A stretch of 29,022 bases of DNA from a virus. Shown piece by piece: positions 13,473 to 27,463 of this stretch. The stretch spans positions 2,660 to 31,681 of the IMG/VR virus record IMGVR_UViG_3300000116_000109. One strand, written 5' to 3'. The notes under the pieces are model-generated. The model had not been told where the DNA came from and did not search any database. It worked only from the letters and a program-made list of their open reading frames with translations. Position 1 is the first letter of the stretch. Every line of letters begins with the position of its first letter. A program made the translations under genes and the position numbers.

Positions 13473-14093
13473 ATGTCCTATCAGTGCGTCATATATAATC
13501 CACAACTTCCAAATCAAATCATAACTGAAGTGGAAAATGAAATTAGTGCTAATGTAGAAGTTGTTAATTCTTCTGTAGATAATTTTGAAAATAAAATCTT
13601 GCTAAAATCAGTAAGAAGTTCAAAACACGCTTGGATTTCTACAGATTACTGGATTGCTTCTCACATTTGGTTTTATATTCAAAAAGCAAATGAAAGTAAT
13701 TTTTTATATGACATAACAAAATTTGAAAACGATGTCATACAATATACAACATATGACGTTGGAGATCATTATAATTGGCATGTAGATTATTCTATATCTA
13801 CTAATATTAACAAAAGCGTTGGTAATAATTTTGAAGAAAATACTCTAAACTCTGTTTTAGTAAAAAATCAAGAAATAAGAAAATTATCTTTTGTAATGCA
13901 GTTATCTGATCCTTCTGATTATGAAGGAGGAGAATTACAGTTTCTTGACGATTCTGATAATATATATTATGCTCCTAAAGAAAAAGGAACTATAATAGTT
14001 TTTGACTCTAGAACGAAACATAGAGTTAGAAAAATTAAAAAAGGTTTCAGAAAAAGTATTGTTGGTTGGGTTATGGGTCCAAGATGGAAATGA
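13473..14093 (+). CDS. 2OG-Fe(II) oxygenase, PKHD/prolyl-hydroxylase-like
   Basis: This 206-aa protein shows the double-stranded beta-helix landmarks of a 2-oxoglutarate/Fe(II) dioxygenase. The HxD pair is His103-x-Asp105 in YNWHVDYS, followed by RKLSFVMQLSD, the turn YEGGELQF, the distal His183 in FDSRTKHRV, and Arg193 (ten residues on) for 2-oxoglutarate binding. It ends with the signature GW-x-x-GPRWK. The family hydroxylates protein or small-molecule substrates; the substrate here is unknown. The gene starts 18 bases after tRNA-Thr and its stop overlaps the next start (ATGA). A close paralogue lacking both His residues lies at 25206. Confidence 0.85.
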   Translation: MSYQCVIYNPQLPNQIITEVENEISANVEVVNSSVDNFENKILLKSVRSSKHAWISTDYWIASHIWFYIQKANESNFLYDITKFENDVIQYTTYDVGDHYNWHVDYSISTNINKSVGNNFEENTLNSVLVKNQEIRKLSFVMQLSDPSDYEGGELQFLDDSDNIYYAPKEKGTIIVFDSRTKHRVRKIKKGFRKSIVGWVMGPRWK

Positions 14094-14713
14094 ACGTTGA
14101 ACTATTGCCTCTTTTCAGTACACCTGTTTTTGTTGTTGATATCGAGGAGGATTTAGGTGATATCTCCACCTTTATAAAGTATTTTGAGTATCAAGATATA
14201 AATGTAGATGGAGATAATGAATGTGCTACAACTAAAAAATTAAATGTCCTTGAACATGCAGAATTGCTTGAGCTCAAGAAAACTATAATTAAACACTTCA
14301 ATTATATTAAAAATGAAGTGTTTAAGTATACTGATACTCAATTTGAGATTACTACATCTTGGGGAACTAGGGTAGGAAAAAACTCTACTAGTCATTATCA
14401 CAATCATAGAAATGCATTGTATAGTGGAGTATTTTATTTTGAAAATTATGGAAAAAATAATTCTTTCATAGAATTTTCTTCTTTCTCTAAAGAACAATTT
14501 GATTTGAATAATTCGGAGAGAAATATTTTTAATAGTGAGAATTGGACTATTGAAACCAAGAAGAACAGACTAATTATTTTCCCAAGCAATATTTACCATA
14601 GAGTAGTATACAAGAACTGTAATTTGTATAGATATTCTTTAGCTTTCAATTTAATTCCAACAAAATCATTTGGGTATCTTGATAGCAGTGTCAATATAAA
14701 TCTAGTAAGATGA
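14090..14713 (+). CDS. putative 2OG-Fe(II) oxygenase, PF13759-like
   Basis: I prefer ATG 14090 (207 aa), which forms an ATGA overlap with the previous stop; in-frame ATGs also exist at 14066 and 14084. The start ELLPLFSTPVFVVDI is typical of this phage oxygenase group, which begins with 'LFxTPVxxxD'. The metal site is likely the HxH-type His102/His104 in SHYHNHRNALYSGVFYF, with distal His170 (FPSNIYHRV) and Arg181 (YRYSLAFN). Such proteins are common in T4-like cyanophages, often near tail-fibre genes, and their substrates are not known. The following 56-aa gene also begins in an ATGA overlap. Confidence 0.8.
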   Translation: MNVELLPLFSTPVFVVDIEEDLGDISTFIKYFEYQDINVDGDNECATTKKLNVLEHAELLELKKTIIKHFNYIKNEVFKYTDTQFEITTSWGTRVGKNSTSHYHNHRNALYSGVFYFENYGKNNSFIEFSSFSKEQFDLNNSERNIFNSENWTIETKKNRLIIFPSNIYHRVVYKNCNLYRYSLAFNLIPTKSFGYLDSSVNINLVR

Positions 14714-14880
14714 AAATAAATCTCTGGTATTCCAAAAGCATGGCTCAATGGAGATGGACTTTATGTACTAAAAAATATAATAAATGTCATCAAGATGAAC
14801 AGCACTCTGGACAAAGAGAAAATCTTAGAGATGCCATGAACGATGTTGCAAATACAGTGGAGTATATTTTAAATGGTTGA
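14710..14880 (+). CDS. small conserved Trp-rich/helical protein, unknown function
   Basis: This 56-aa gene starts at ATG 14710 in an ATGA overlap with the preceding stop and ends at TGA 14878, overlapping the next start by 8 bases. It begins MKINLWYSKSMAQWRWTL and ends with an amphipathic helix (RDAMNDVANTVEYILNG). Tight coupling on both sides argues strongly that it is translated and functionally tied to the oxygenases. I recognise this kind of small protein from cyanophage oxygenase neighbourhoods, but no function is established. Confidence 0.62.
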   Translation: MKINLWYSKSMAQWRWTLCTKKYNKCHQDEQHSGQRENLRDAMNDVANTVEYILNG

Positions 14881-15442
14881 TAATTTTATTTTAGAGTTAG
14901 ATAATTTTTTGACGCCAGAACAGTGCGAACATTACATTGACTATTTTGAGGCAATGAAAGAGAACGGGTTTACTAACACTAGACTTAATCAAAATCGAAA
15001 ACCTCATGATGTTGAAGATCAGGAACATTTCATTCACGAATGTGTACAATATACATCTTTTAGGCCAGGGAAAATTCTTATTGATGAATTTTGGGAAAAT
15101 GCGTATCCAAAGTATGCAGAAAAATATAGCATTCTTCTTGATTCTTCAGAACATAATATAGATAAATTAAAAATTCAGAAGACAGAACCTGGGCAAGGAT
15201 ATCATTCATGGCACTATGAAACTCTTGGTAAAGTAAATCGCGATAGACTTTTATTTTTTATTGTATACTTAAACGATATTGAAGAAGGTGGAGAAACTGA
15301 ATTTCTTTATCTTAGAAAAAGAATTAAAGCAAAGCAAGGAAAACTAATTATGGCACCTGCAGGATTTACTCATACTCATAGAGGAAATCCTCCCCTAAGC
15401 GAAACAAAATATATTATGACAGGGTGGGTGGAATATACGTAA
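14873..15442 (+). CDS. 2OG-Fe(II) oxygenase, prolyl 4-hydroxylase-like
   Basis: This 189-aa protein begins with an FLTPEQCEHYIDYFE helix like prolyl 4-hydroxylases. Catalytic region: His114-x-Glu116 in YHSWHYE, the GGETEFLY turn (139-146), His169 in THTHRGNPP, and Lys179 ten residues later in TKYIMTGW, which would bind the 2-oxoglutarate carboxylate. The metal-binding acid is Glu rather than the usual Asp. That is tolerated in some members but could lower or alter activity. It overlaps the 56-aa gene upstream and the Mom-like gene downstream. Substrate unknown. Confidence 0.85.
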   Translation: MVDNFILELDNFLTPEQCEHYIDYFEAMKENGFTNTRLNQNRKPHDVEDQEHFIHECVQYTSFRPGKILIDEFWENAYPKYAEKYSILLDSSEHNIDKLKIQKTEPGQGYHSWHYETLGKVNRDRLLFFIVYLNDIEEGGETEFLYLRKRIKAKQGKLIMAPAGFTHTHRGNPPLSETKYIMTGWVEYT

Positions 15443-16086
15443 ATCAACACATAATAAGCAATTATACTCAAGTGAAATCAGATTTTTATATAGATAGAGT
15501 TAGTAAAGAAGAAATCAAAGAACTTCTTTATACCCATCACTACTTGAAAGACGAGTCCAAAGATTTCAAATCAGGGTATAACTATGGACTTTTTAAGCGC
15601 ACTGAATGGGAATGCCCTCTTAGGATTGGGGAGTGCCTTGCTGCTTGCGTTTTTACTGGCCTCCCAGTTCCAGAAATTGCCAGGGGAGCATTTGGATTAG
15701 AACGCAATCAGCAAGAAGGTTTATTTGAACTTTCTAGATTATGTGTTCATCCAGAAGTGCAGAAAGAAGAATATAATATTACATCTTGGTTCGTCAGTCG
15801 TTCTATTAAAAAATTCCGTAAAGATGCGAATGTTCGCGCTATTCTTAGTTATGCTGACTCTGCTCACCATAGTGGTATTATATACAGAGCTTGCAATTTC
15901 AACTATTACGGGTTGACAGACGCAAAGAAAGATTTTTATTATAGTGATGGAACTAAGCACTCAAGAGGAAGTGTAAAAGGCGCAGATGGTGAATGGAGAG
16001 ACAGAACCAGAAAACATAGATACTTGATGGTATTTGACAAAAAACTTCAAGTGTTGTGGAAAAAACAAAAATGTGATACTATATAA
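15424..16086 (+). CDS. Mom-like DNA adenine modification protein (GNAT-related)
   Basis: This 220-aa protein starts at GTG 15424 inside the preceding oxygenase (19-base overlap); start choice is uncertain because no ATG occurs early. It has the layout of the phage Mu Mom family: HYLKDESKDFKSGYNYGLF, then CVFTGLPVPE, then FELSRLCVHPEV, then TSWFVSRSIKKF, then ILSYADSAHHSGIIYRAC and NFNYYGLTD, ending with RKHRYLMVF. Mom carries out N6-carbamoylmethylation of adenine to protect phage DNA from restriction; Mom relatives are known in cyanophages. It lies at the end of a coupled oxygenase operon and shortly before a terminator, so the oxygenases may act in the same modification or defence-evasion pathway. 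That link is inference. Confidence 0.8.
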   Translation: MGGIYVNQHIISNYTQVKSDFYIDRVSKEEIKELLYTHHYLKDESKDFKSGYNYGLFKRTEWECPLRIGECLAACVFTGLPVPEIARGAFGLERNQQEGLFELSRLCVHPEVQKEEYNITSWFVSRSIKKFRKDANVRAILSYADSAHHSGIIYRACNFNYYGLTDAKKDFYYSDGTKHSRGSVKGADGEWRDRTRKHRYLMVFDKKLQVLWKKQKCDTI

Positions 16087-23725: not shown

Positions 23726-25174
23726 ATGGCTATCAATAAAAATTTTGTAGTCAAGAACGGATTAGAAGTAAGCACTAATCTTATTCTTGCAGATGCCATT
23801 ACTAATAAGGTAGGTATTGGTAGTACAATTCCATCCACTCAGTTAGATGTTATTGGTGGAATTGCATGTACTGACTTTAGAGCGGTTGGTGTTGCTACAA
23901 TTAAAACTTTAAAGGCAACAACTGGGATTGTCACCGATTTACTTGCAACTTATGGTACTGTTGGAATTGTAACTGCTGCTGCATTACAACCAACGCATGT
24001 AAATGTTTCTGGTGTACTAACTGCAGCAACTGCTCAGTTTGATGGAGTTACAACAATTGCTGTCGGTGTTGTCACATATCTGAGCGGAACGAATTTAAAT
24101 TATTCCGGTATCGGAACAATTCAAGATTCAGTTATTACTTCATTAAATGTAACTGGATTCTCAACTATTGCAGACTTAAATGTAACTGGGGTTGCAACTG
24201 TTGCTACGGTTGATATTAATGCGGGAGATATTGAAGTCACATCTGTAAGAACTTCAAACTTAAATGCAACTGGTGTTACTACCATTACATCACTCTCTGT
24301 TACTGGTTCAACATTTGAAAGATTAACTGTAAATAACTACAGCAATCTTGCTGGTGTTACTACAATTGATAATGCAACTGGAACTAATTTAAATTTCAGT
24401 GGTGTTGGCACAATAACAACAACTGAAGCAACCAGTGTACAATCAACAAATCTCAATGTAACTGGAGTTACAACTACCAATACATTTGAAGCATCAACTG
24501 CAGATATTGATATTCTCACTGTCAATAGCTATAGCAATCTTGCTGGTGTTACCACAATTGATAATGCAACTGGAACTAATCTAAATTTCAGTGGAATAGG
24601 TTCTGTTGGGGGAGTTTTATTCAGCAGTGGTATTATAACTTCTACAGCACTTGGAGCAGGAATTGTCACCTTCTATGGTGATGGAAGTCAATTACAATTC
24701 CTTCCATCAGCATCACCTGAAGGTTCTGATACTCAAGTACAGTTTAATGCTACCGGTGTTTTCTCTGGACATCCTGGATTTACATATAACTATGAAACCG
24801 TAGGTGCTACAAGTTTAAATGTTTCTACTGGTGCTACAATTGGAACAGACTTAATCGTCAGTAGAAATGTAAAAATTACTGGAGTTGCAACTGCACAAGA
24901 CTTCGATGCTCTTTCTGATGTCAACTTTAAAGAAAATATCAAAACCGTAGAAGGTGCATTAGATAAAGTAGAACAACTTCGTGGTGTAAGATTTAATTGG
25001 AAAGAATCTGGCAATCCATCTTATGGAGTTATTGCTCAAGAGTTGGAAGAAGTTCTTCCAGAATTGGTTCACGGAAGCGATCCTAGGACAGTTAATTACA
25101 ATGGAATTATTGGAGTATTGATTGAAGCAATTAAAGAACTCAAGAGTGAAATCAAAGATTTAAAGTCTCAATAA
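23726..25174 (+). CDS. tail fibre with C-terminal S74 intramolecular chaperone domain
   Basis: This 482-aa protein opens MAINKNFVVKNGLEVSTNLI, a common cyanophage fibre start, followed by many short beta repeats of the 'LNVTGVTT...' type with Val/Thr/Ser/Asn-rich composition. The final 86 residues match the endosialidase-type chaperone (S74 peptidase): LSDVNFKENIKTVEGALDKV, then LRGVRFNWKES, then YGVIAQELEEVLPELV, then a terminal coiled coil IEAIKELKSEIKDLKS. Ser397 and Lys402 sit at the usual Ser...Lys dyad positions, so self-cleavage just before Ser397 is expected after trimer folding. It is probably a trimeric host-recognition fibre. Confidence 0.88.
   Translation: MAINKNFVVKNGLEVSTNLILADAITNKVGIGSTIPSTQLDVIGGIACTDFRAVGVATIKTLKATTGIVTDLLATYGTVGIVTAAALQPTHVNVSGVLTAATAQFDGVTTIAVGVVTYLSGTNLNYSGIGTIQDSVITSLNVTGFSTIADLNVTGVATVATVDINAGDIEVTSVRTSNLNATGVTTITSLSVTGSTFERLTVNNYSNLAGVTTIDNATGTNLNFSGVGTITTTEATSVQSTNLNVTGVTTTNTFEASTADIDILTVNSYSNLAGVTTIDNATGTNLNFSGIGSVGGVLFSSGIITSTALGAGIVTFYGDGSQLQFLPSASPEGSDTQVQFNATGVFSGHPGFTYNYETVGATSLNVSTGATIGTDLIVSRNVKITGVATAQDFDALSDVNFKENIKTVEGALDKVEQLRGVRFNWKESGNPSYGVIAQELEEVLPELVHGSDPRTVNYNGIIGVLIEAIKELKSEIKDLKSQ
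24341..24598 (+). repeat. direct repeat (period 192 bp) within the S74 fibre gene
   Basis: Copies at 24341-24406 and 24533-24598 share almost all bases (AGCAATCTTGCTGGTGTTAC and onward), offset 192 bp or 64 codons. They encode SNLAGVTTIDNATGTNLNFS twice. The near-identity of DNA indicates recent duplication. Confidence 0.9.
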
Positions 25175-25205: not shown

Positions 25206-25706
25206 ATGAATCATACATCTGCGTGGATTTTTACCAATCTACCACCTGAAATAATAAACATAATAGAAGAAACCGCACAAGATAATATAATAAATTCTAA
25301 AATACATTGCAATTCATGGATTGGTGGTTTTTTATGGCATTACATACGAAAATTTAATAATGAAAATTTTAAGTATGACATCAATGACATTGAATGTGAT
25401 GGAATTGAATATATTGAGCAATCAACTGGAGACTCTACTACATGGAGAAATGATATACTTATAAACTCAGAGGAAGATTCAGAAACTGTTAGAAAGTTGT
25501 CCTTTATACTTCAACTTTCGGATCATGACTCCTATGAAGGAGGAAATGTTCAAATTATGAATCAATATGGACAAACATATTTTTTCCCTAGAATAAGAGG
25601 AACTATCATTGTATTCGATTCTAGATCTCAATATAGAATTTGTAAGATAAAGTCTGGAACCAGAAAAAGTCTTGCTGGATGTGTGACTGGGCCAAGATGG
25701 AGATGA
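25206..25706 (+). CDS. 2OG-oxygenase family protein lacking both metal-binding His residues (likely pseudo-enzyme)
   Basis: This 166-aa protein aligns by eye with the oxygenase at 13473, sharing RKLSFILQLSD, YEGG, GTIIVFDSRS, RKSLAG and the C-terminal GPRWR. The metal-binding residues differ: the HxD motif WHVD is WRND here (His to Arg), and the distal His of DSRTKHRV is Tyr in DSRSQYRI. The 2OG-binding Arg appears retained (TRKS). Without either His an Fe(II) site is unlikely, so it is probably a non-catalytic paralogue, perhaps a chaperone or scaffold. The frame is open and tidy, not a decaying pseudogene. It is followed after six bases by an intact-looking 2OG gene. Confidence 0.8.
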   Translation: MNHTSAWIFTNLPPEIINIIEETAQDNIINSKIHCNSWIGGFLWHYIRKFNNENFKYDINDIECDGIEYIEQSTGDSTTWRNDILINSEEDSETVRKLSFILQLSDHDSYEGGNVQIMNQYGQTYFFPRIRGTIIVFDSRSQYRICKIKSGTRKSLAGCVTGPRWR

Positions 25707-25712
25707 ACTGCT

Positions 25713-26324
25713 ATGGATTATTCGCCTACAAAATTTAAAGACTTTGATAAAACTGGATTTTTTATTGTTGAAAATATATGTAATGTAACAGAACTAATAG
25801 AAGAAGTTCCCGAAGAAAGAGGATATATCAGATACCTCAAACCTAATGATAAAGAATATAAACTTGGAAAACAATTTGTCAAAGAAGAATGTGATGATCA
25901 AATGAAGGGATGTTTTTCGAGGTATAAAAACCCAAGATATAAACATTTTCACACTAAACTGAGATTGATTTTGGAGGAAATAATTGGTAAAAAATTATAT
26001 AATACATTTTACTATGACAGATTTTATTTTCCAGGCAATGAATTAAAAAGGCATGTTGATAGACATGCGTGCGAAATATCAATTACACTTCACATTGGTT
26101 CTAATTTAAAACAAGACTGGCCTATCAGTATAGAATCTGTAGATGGAGAAGTTTATGATGTTGAATTAAATCCTGGAGATGCATTGGTGTATAAGGGATG
26201 TGATCGCCCTCATTGGAGAGATGTCATGATTGGAAGAGAATCAGCATACTATCACCAAGCATTTTTTCATTATGTTTTAGCAGATGGAACAAGATGCCAA
26301 TATGCATTTGATGTATGTAAATGA
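25713..26324 (+). CDS. 2OG-Fe(II) oxygenase-like protein
   Basis: This 203-aa protein begins MDYSPTKFKDFDKTGFFIVE, typical of phytanoyl-CoA-hydroxylase-like or general 2OG enzymes. His114-x-Asp116 sits in NELKRHVDRHACEISITLHI, with distal His167 in CDRPHWRD and a possible 2OG-binding Arg175. The stretch VELNPGDALVYKG is the usual beta strand before the distal His. This pattern (RHxDR...SxTLHIG...WPIxIE...PGDxLxYxG...H) is seen in a distinct group of oxygenases that includes rhizobial and marine proteins. It follows the His-less paralogue by six bases and may be co-expressed with it. Substrate unknown. Confidence 0.8.
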   Translation: MDYSPTKFKDFDKTGFFIVENICNVTELIEEVPEERGYIRYLKPNDKEYKLGKQFVKEECDDQMKGCFSRYKNPRYKHFHTKLRLILEEIIGKKLYNTFYYDRFYFPGNELKRHVDRHACEISITLHIGSNLKQDWPISIESVDGEVYDVELNPGDALVYKGCDRPHWRDVMIGRESAYYHQAFFHYVLADGTRCQYAFDVCK

Positions 26325-26760: not shown

Positions 26761-26976
26761 ATGTCTACTCTAAAAGTTGATAGATTAAGGAGTCTTACAG
26801 ATTCTGCCGTAGAATTTTCTAAAGGAGTTTCAGTAGCAACTGCATCAACCATAACTGGCAATATCAATTGTGGTGTATGTACTGCAGGTTACTTTTCTGG
26901 AAGTGGTTCTGGAATTACAAATATTCCCGGAGCAGCTGTCGGATTTGTGGTAGCACAAAACATTACATCGATTTAG
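26761..26976 (+). CDS. mini tail-fibre-like protein, tandem copy 1
   Basis: This 71-aa protein has a strong ribosome-binding site (AGGAG before ATG 26761). It opens STLKVDRLRSLTD and ends with CTAGYFSGSGSGITNIPG, corresponding to the 'ATAFxGDGSGLTNI' unit found in long fibre proteins. It is the first of three tandem paralogues (71, 75, 82 aa), each consisting of an N-terminal 'S-x-x-x-V-D/S-x-x-x-x' strand and one fibre repeat. It is probably a small virion or fibre component. The next gene starts 4 bases later. Confidence 0.6.
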   Translation: MSTLKVDRLRSLTDSAVEFSKGVSVATASTITGNINCGVCTAGYFSGSGSGITNIPGAAVGFVVAQNITSI

Positions 26977-26980
26977 AAAA

Positions 26981-27208
26981 ATGGCATCATTAATACAAGT
27001 ATCATCCGTTCAATCTCAAACAGCTGGATTAGCAGTTACTTTTTCTAATGGAATCATTATAGATCCCAGTCATTCTATTAGTGGGGCAGGTGGTTTAAAT
27101 GTGGTAGGTGTTTTAACTTCAATCTCGTTCAGTGGTGATGGTAGCGGAATGACAAACATTGGAGGAATTTTACCACCAAAAGCAATATCACTGTCAATTA
27201 TCATCTAA
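26981..27208 (+). CDS. mini tail-fibre-like protein, tandem copy 2
   Basis: This 75-aa protein starts ASLIQVSSVQSQTAGLAVTF and carries GGLNVVGVLTSISFSGDGSG, nearly the same as the core of copy 3 (GGLNVVGVLTATAFVGDGSQ). The end is a short hydrophobic tail (PPKAISLSIII). There is a 6-base gap to copy 3. Arrangement and similarity indicate tandem duplication with divergence. Confidence 0.6.
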   Translation: MASLIQVSSVQSQTAGLAVTFSNGIIIDPSHSISGAGGLNVVGVLTSISFSGDGSGMTNIGGILPPKAISLSIII

Positions 27209-27214
27209 AAAATC

Positions 27215-27463
27215 ATGTCAGCAATTCAAGTAGATCAGATTACAAATCAAGCCGGGACAGGAGCGCCAATCCTCACCCATGGAGCAACTATTCCTGTTGG
27301 TTATGCAATTACTTCTGCAGGAGGTTTAAATGTTGTTGGTGTGTTGACAGCTACAGCATTTGTTGGTGATGGTTCTCAATTAACAAATATCGTAACTTGC
27401 ACAGAAGGACAAACCATCGCATTCAAACTTTTGTTCAACTATGACAACTGTCATAGAGCTTAA
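27215..27463 (+). CDS. mini tail-fibre-like protein, tandem copy 3
   Basis: This 82-aa protein starts SAIQVDQITNQAGTGAPILT and includes VLTATAFVGDGSQLTNIVTC, followed by a C-terminal segment (EGQTIAFKLLFNYDNC) different from the other copies. It is the last of the tandem set. Its 3' end contains a perfect inverted repeat (27439-27456). Confidence 0.6.
   Translation: MSAIQVDQITNQAGTGAPILTHGATIPVGYAITSAGGLNVVGVLTATAFVGDGSQLTNIVTCTEGQTIAFKLLFNYDNCHRA
27439..27456. other. short inverted repeat at the end of copy 3
   Basis: CTATGACA and TGTCATAG are perfect 8-base arms around AC, followed after nine bases by a weak TTTT run. It might form a small hairpin at the end of the mini-fibre cluster, but does not meet the usual terminator pattern. 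Confidence 0.3.

Follow-up and report, generated by a model that had tools for sequence, protein, structure and literature searches.

A candidate pseudo-oxygenase in a marine viral contig: a 2OG-Fe(II) oxygenase homologue without its two iron-binding histidines

Background

A marine T4-like phage typically encodes several 2OG-Fe(II) oxygenases whose substrates are unknown; a connection with nitrogen status or with DNA repair has been proposed (PMC3037559). The window analyzed here is a stretch of 29,022 nucleotides and part of a 31.7-kb viral contig fragment (IMG/VR record IMGVR_UViG_3300000116_000109). Its best matches are to cyanophages, and it carries genes for the baseplate and fibres, among them a Peptidase_S74 fibre, and for a tail assembly chaperone; on these grounds the virus is placed among the marine T4-like cyanomyoviruses. 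No close DNA relative of the window was found in the phage collection.

One open reading frame, at 25206, has the signature of such an oxygenase but lacks the histidines that would hold the iron. This raises the question whether the virus maintains an oxygenase fold without its chemistry, and in which role, or whether the gene is simply decaying. Our searches of the open-access literature turned up no description of a phage pseudo-2OG-oxygenase. Features are collected in Table 1, and genes are named by their first nucleotide in the window.

Table 1. Features of the window, numbered from its first nucleotide
Feature	Position	Strand	Remark
Peptidase_S74 fibre gene with its own S74 chaperone domain	23726-25174		5' neighbour of 25206
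His-less 2OG-Fe(II) oxygenase homologue, proposed pseudo-oxygenase, 166 aa	25206..25706	+	PHROG 61 / T4-GC 412 type
Strand before HxD, Y72 to Q and Y78 to T (PHD2 Tyr303 and Tyr310 positions)	25419..25439	+	
Codon 81, AGA (Arg), replaces the first iron-binding His (CAY)	25446..25448	+	3/3 bases differ
Codon 83, GAT (Asp), retained Asp of HxD	25452..25454	+	
Codon 143, TAT (Tyr), replaces the second iron-binding His	25632..25634	+	
Codon 153 (Arg), retained 2OG-carboxylate arginine, PHD2 Arg383 position	25662..25664	+	alignment
Codon 159, TGT (Cys), replaces a conserved Trp (PHD2 Trp389 position)	25680..25682	+	
GGAG, Shine-Dalgarno-like, within the final codons of 25206 and 10 bases ahead of the ATG of 25713	25699..25702	+	seen in sequence
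Partner gene, T4-GC 615 / PHROG 2954, HxD...H...R intact	25713..26324	+	
Second T4-GC 412-type oxygenase, HxD...H and R intact	13473..14093	+	no 615 gene after it within the window

Loss of the iron ligands

The frame runs from ATG to TGA with zero internal stops. Its product matches PHROG 61 (E 6.6e-16), the product of 13473 (42% identity, E 3e-40 with BLASTP) and phage Bellamy (tblastn 2e-39). Against the Pfam family 2OG-FeII_Oxy_3 (PF13640) it scores 25.2 bits (E 3.3e-5), just under the gathering cut-off of 27, compared to 48.3 for an intact short homologue from the IMG/VR locus L027.

The original prediction had been made from the sequence in comparison with 13473, and the translation and the BLASTP alignment, in which the motifs align unambiguously, agree with it in detail: WHVD has become WRND (residues 80-83), DSRTKHR has become DSRSQYR (138-144), RKLSF, YEGG, GTIIVFDSR and GPRW are retained, and the frame is intact. 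Both metal-binding histidines are indeed lost: the HxD...H triad reads R81-D83-Y143 in this protein, whereas each of the 153 other distinct homologues with full coverage has His-Asp-His. The arginine that binds 2-oxoglutarate on the last core strand, which is aligned across all homologues, is present as R153. Absent as well are some 25 residues of the N-terminal half, corresponding to a conserved R-x-S-x-x-A-W segment.

The remaining histidines lie at positions 3, 34, 45 and 107. His45 was considered as a compensating ligand and rejected, as it occurs in most intact homologues too. A sequencing or frame error behind the loss was rejected likewise, as a clean frame and a step from His81 to AGA that takes three substitutions do not fit one.

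It might be argued that the site still holds iron in a non-canonical way, by Asp83 and Tyr143, perhaps helped by Cys159, or that one protein ligand is enough. The retained Asp83 and 2-oxoglutarate arginine would fit such a site. Human AspH, which has two histidines only and of which single-His-ligand variants remain active, provides a precedent for fewer ligands (PMC10947486). The AspH cases, however, retain at least one histidine whereas 25206 has lost both; the equivalents of PHD2 Tyr303, Tyr310 and Trp389 are also gone, and no alternative metal triad is seen in the alignment. We therefore regard a working non-canonical site as highly improbable.

Changes across the catalytic pocket

In an alignment of 142 relatives, 48 columns reach a conservation of at least 97% and were used as the family-conserved set. 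The 25206 protein differs at 14 of these and keeps the other 34. The changes include Q68E, T70I, Y72Q, Y78T, H81R, H143Y, V145I, V157A and W159C; by motif spacing, their PHD2 counterparts are, in the same order, Met299, Ala301, Tyr303, Tyr310, His313, His374, Val376, Thr387 and Trp389. Among the residues kept are D83 and R153 (the positions of PHD2 Asp315 and Arg383), the GG of YEGG, FDSR, RKLS, Y57, W38 and W44.

The iron ligands and 2-oxoglutarate pocket residues of PHD2, including the role of Arg383, are listed in PMC6332328; the nine PHD2 counterparts above, Asp315 and Arg383 are all on that list. In the columns corresponding to this metal and 2-oxoglutarate pocket, 9 of 11 are changed, against 5 of 37 elsewhere (Fisher p = 5e-5); the p value is strong but should not be taken as exact, because the columns were mapped to PHD2 after the changes had been seen, using motif spacing and weak profile alignments. 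For the strand preceding HxD the mapping rests on motif spacing and a weak alignment to the viral P4H 5c5t, and a short profile of this strand yielded chance matches only when compared with the PDB. The same pocket bias is absent in all seven comparison sequences, several of which are equally diverged.

Predicted fold

The AlphaFold2 model of 25206 (built with 55 homologues) reaches a pLDDT of 89.6 and a pTM of 0.86 and adopts a prolyl-hydroxylase fold. Structurally it comes closest to bacterial P4H, PHD2, viral P4H and PKHD/PiuC hydroxylases, with Z 16.1 over 157 residues (rmsd 3.2) for PHD2 5l9b, and the model of the 13473 product returns the same list. Structure prediction thus agrees with a retained oxygenase fold. 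The model alone is no proof that the protein folds, since the alignment behind it is made up of intact homologues, which account for part of its confidence. By prediction, the double-stranded beta-helix is kept. A protein that has lost its catalytic residues and, as predicted here, retains the fold has the character of a pseudoenzyme.

Confidence is lowest in residues 81-90, beside the lost first histidine, where it averages 69. This bears on the idea of a repurposed pocket, in which the barrel would bind a new ligand (a carboxylate via Arg81 and Arg153, or a peptide) without redox chemistry and without any relation to 25713. The polar or charged nature of several replacements (Arg, Gln, Thr, Tyr, Cys) and the retention of Arg153 and Asp83 are in line with such a role, but the pocket region is precisely the least certain part of the model. 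A new ligand seems to us an improbable explanation.

A single case among homologues

Homologues gathered from IMG/VR loci and reference phages amount to 156 distinct sequences. The triad and the 2-oxoglutarate arginine (H-D-H-R) are found in 153 of them, 13473 included; two run off the end of their contig but still have the second histidine, and only 25206 reads R-D-Y-R. Other sequences that had been labelled as deviating in a first pass turned out to be contig-end truncations or alignment artefacts.

A second His-less member was not found in IMG/VR, where records very near the window were possibly not covered. Degenerate-codon scans of IMG/VR, two of them for residues other than His at one or the other ligand site and a third for Tyr, gave chance matches or nothing. 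With the His codons restored, two of the scan patterns recover 59/79 and 57/79 known members as a positive control; the scans could miss about one quarter of the variants, and also Gln, Leu, Pro or CGN-Arg codons. Fixation of the loss in a clade is consequently not borne out, as 25206 is a singleton in both the homologue alignment and the scans. On these sequences the His-less form is that of a single genome.

Elsewhere in the window, 13473 opens a run of three consecutive 2OG-Fe(II) oxygenase genes (13473, 14066 and 14873). A Mom-like DNA modification protein follows at 15424 (Pfam Mom match, E 2.3e-20), the whole spanning 13473-16086. That 25206 would be a recent duplicate of 13473 is not supported, given the 42% identity between the two and the lack of grouping in the tree, although the AU test allows a clade of both (p = 0.35). 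Another comparison is offered by L027 (IMG/VR 3300026260_000231), which contains two tandem 412-615 pairs (L027:79-2668). Its first 412 gene (L027:79-564) encodes a short form of 161 aa that misses the same N-terminal segment as 25206 and is changed at Q68, T70 and Y78; H-D-H-R is fully kept and a 615 gene comes next. This short form may represent an intermediate towards 25206. A sister relationship of the two has AU p = 0.31, the pairing with 13473 being equally allowed.

The terminal branch of 25206 is long (3.3 to 3.9 changes per column). It is not exceptional, however, because diverged members with an intact site have similarly long branches (3.1 for S-SSM5, 2.8 for Sf-CH11 and 2.4 for 13473).

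Selection versus decay

Synonymous sites are saturated between 25206 and even its nearest homologue, which is approximately 50% identical. The main competing explanation is decay in progress: redundant beside the intact 13473, the gene would have lost its active site and now be drifting, with a frame that is still unbroken. The presence of an intact 412 paralogue on the same contig, the singleton status, the missing N-terminal segment and the long terminal branch all fit this explanation. A stop-free frame by itself also fits a short neutral period. In a neutral simulation the frame stayed free of stops in 33%, 16% or 1% of the runs for 4, 7 or 13 conserved-column changes after relaxation, so with 4 or 7 changes the open frame alone is weak evidence against recent decay.

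Other observations point away from decay. The changes cluster in the pocket instead of being spread over the conserved columns as uniform decay would have them, and the branch is unexceptional next to those of the intact-site members. Moreover, since AGA and CAY have no base in common at any codon position, the loss of the first histidine is probably not recent, and still the frame is open. The simplest route would lead from CAY to CGY and then through two silent Arg steps, although other paths exist; along this route the arginine would have been kept while silent changes piled up. The joint neutral chance of His to AGA and an open frame is at most about 2e-6 at every tested divergence, a figure that comes without a matching likelihood under selection and concerns a codon picked after inspection, which is always somewhat improbable.

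The pocket clustering and the AGA codon weaken the case for decay, which we consider unlikely, though a serious contender, and 25206 may be under purifying selection. As for the maintained pseudo-enzyme of the original prediction, the lost canonical metal site, the fold predicted to be kept and the concentration of losses in the pocket speak in its favour; fixation in a clade is not supported for this singleton.

The 412-615 gene pair

As predicted, the oxygenase-like frame of 25713 starts six bases past the 25206 stop. It is found on the same strand and its product matches PHROG 2954 (E 2.5e-56). Of 153 distinct 615 matches, 149 carry the complete HxD...H...R motif, 25713 included. Among 76 close relatives of 25713 in IMG/VR loci, 69 are immediately preceded by a 412 gene, and for the remaining seven it lies roughly one gene farther upstream; conversely, 615 lies directly downstream of 74 of 76 412 genes in the nearest IMG/VR loci. 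These counts come from loci chosen with alignments that were built largely on paired genes. The order is the same in S-SM2, Bellamy and Sf-CH11, where 2-8 bases separate the two genes, and in S-SSM5, where they overlap by 28 bases. More distant 615 genes occur alone or beside other oxygenases (S-PM2, HTVC008M), and because distant homologues such as that of S-PM2 have no adjacent 412 the pair is not obligatory family-wide. The adjacency in close relatives nevertheless supports the suggested link between 25206 and the downstream oxygenase.

In Synechococcus phage S-T4, a 615 domain (E 1.7e-36) and a 2OG-oxygenase domain (E 2.9e-14) share one frame of 396 codons. This frame corresponds to L223:1273-2460; the annotated CDS begins at 1606, which removes much of the 615 domain. 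One half of PHROG 3531 is likewise matched by 615-type and the other half by 412-type proteins. The two-domain annotation of 023Pt_psg01 was examined as a further fusion and rejected, as it holds a single 615-type domain. The database label 'ferrochelatase' for T4-GC 615 / PHROG 2954 looks wrong: no Pfam ferrochelatase match was obtained for 25713, T4-GC 615 or PHROG 2954, the conserved HxD...H...R motif resembles that of 2OG-Fe(II) oxygenases, and the neighbour is an oxygenase. In gene order, 25206 occupies the 412 place in a two-gene unit, the products of which plausibly work together.

The GGAG near the end of 25206 makes translational coupling of the two genes possible. Coupling could even be all there is to it, with an irrelevant 25206 protein and a frame kept so that terminating ribosomes start 25713. 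The six-base gap, the GGAG and the short spacing or overlap in relatives would agree with that. Coupling accounts for the open frame, however, and not for the fold residues that have persisted (34 of the 48 conserved columns), which makes it very unlikely as the sole explanation.

The surroundings suggest yet another role, as the ORF is located between the Peptidase_S74 fibre gene and small fibre-like ORFs, and the protein might be a chaperone or scaffold of the adjacent tail fibres. At 26761-27463, several short ORFs have a common motif like GVLTxxSFSGDGSGxTNI and resemble repeated fibre-protein fragments. Proximity to fibres is uninformative on the His-less form, because His-positive 412-615 pairs adjoin fibre genes as well (S-SM2, Bellamy). 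The 23726 fibre, moreover, brings its own S74 chaperone domain. A role as fibre chaperone or scaffold is, to our mind, the most remote of the explanations considered.

Our preferred reading is that 25206 is a fold-retaining pseudo-oxygenase serving as structural or regulatory subunit of 25713, without iron or 2-oxoglutarate chemistry; we put its chances at about even. As the first member of the pair, 25206 would have given up iron and 2-oxoglutarate chemistry and would no longer bind iron. Arg81 could occupy the former iron site and form a salt bridge to the kept Asp83. Through a presumed physical interaction the protein would still act on the 25713 product, whose own motif is intact. Catalysis of the 412 type, if still needed, could come from the intact 13473 paralogue. 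A stronger version is a doubtful, more speculative extension: a pair in which the active subunit depends on a metal-free pseudo-oxygenase for its positioning or regulation, a duplicated intact copy having taken over the old activity.

The 412-615 pair and the natural S-T4 fusion suggest that the 2OG oxygenases of marine T4-like phages may be two-component enzymes and not loose singletons. A 412 copy that keeps its seat in the pair and loses its pocket would allow what 412 does structurally to be told apart from its catalysis, and such a naturally pocket-less copy makes the two-subunit idea directly testable. For the time being 25206 is a pseudoenzyme candidate, with a function deduced from its sequence and neighbourhood.

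Comparison with known systems

The nearest known systems are the T4-GC 412 oxygenases of PHROG 61 (S-SM2 SSM2_035, Bellamy gp46 and S-SSM5 SSSM5_042), which are homologous to 25206 over nearly the full length at 43-46% identity. Their genes have T4-GC 615 downstream, as does 25206. The proteins keep HxD...H, whereas 25206 has RxD...Y and misses the N-terminal segment and most conserved pocket residues. The short L027 protein belongs to the same length class and shares the missing segment, but differs in keeping its iron ligands.

At a larger distance, PHD2, prolyl 4-hydroxylase and PKHD-type (PiuC) hydroxylases have the double-stranded beta-helix in common with the 25206 model (Z 15-16). The identity is 11-17%, and 25206 lacks both histidine ligands as well as the aromatic pocket residues.

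Non-catalytic relatives of 2OG oxygenases exist in eukaryotes: JARID2, for example, has the oxygenase fold, performs no catalysis and acts via partners. JARID2 belongs to a different subfamily and a different host than 25206, and we liken the two as an analogy only.
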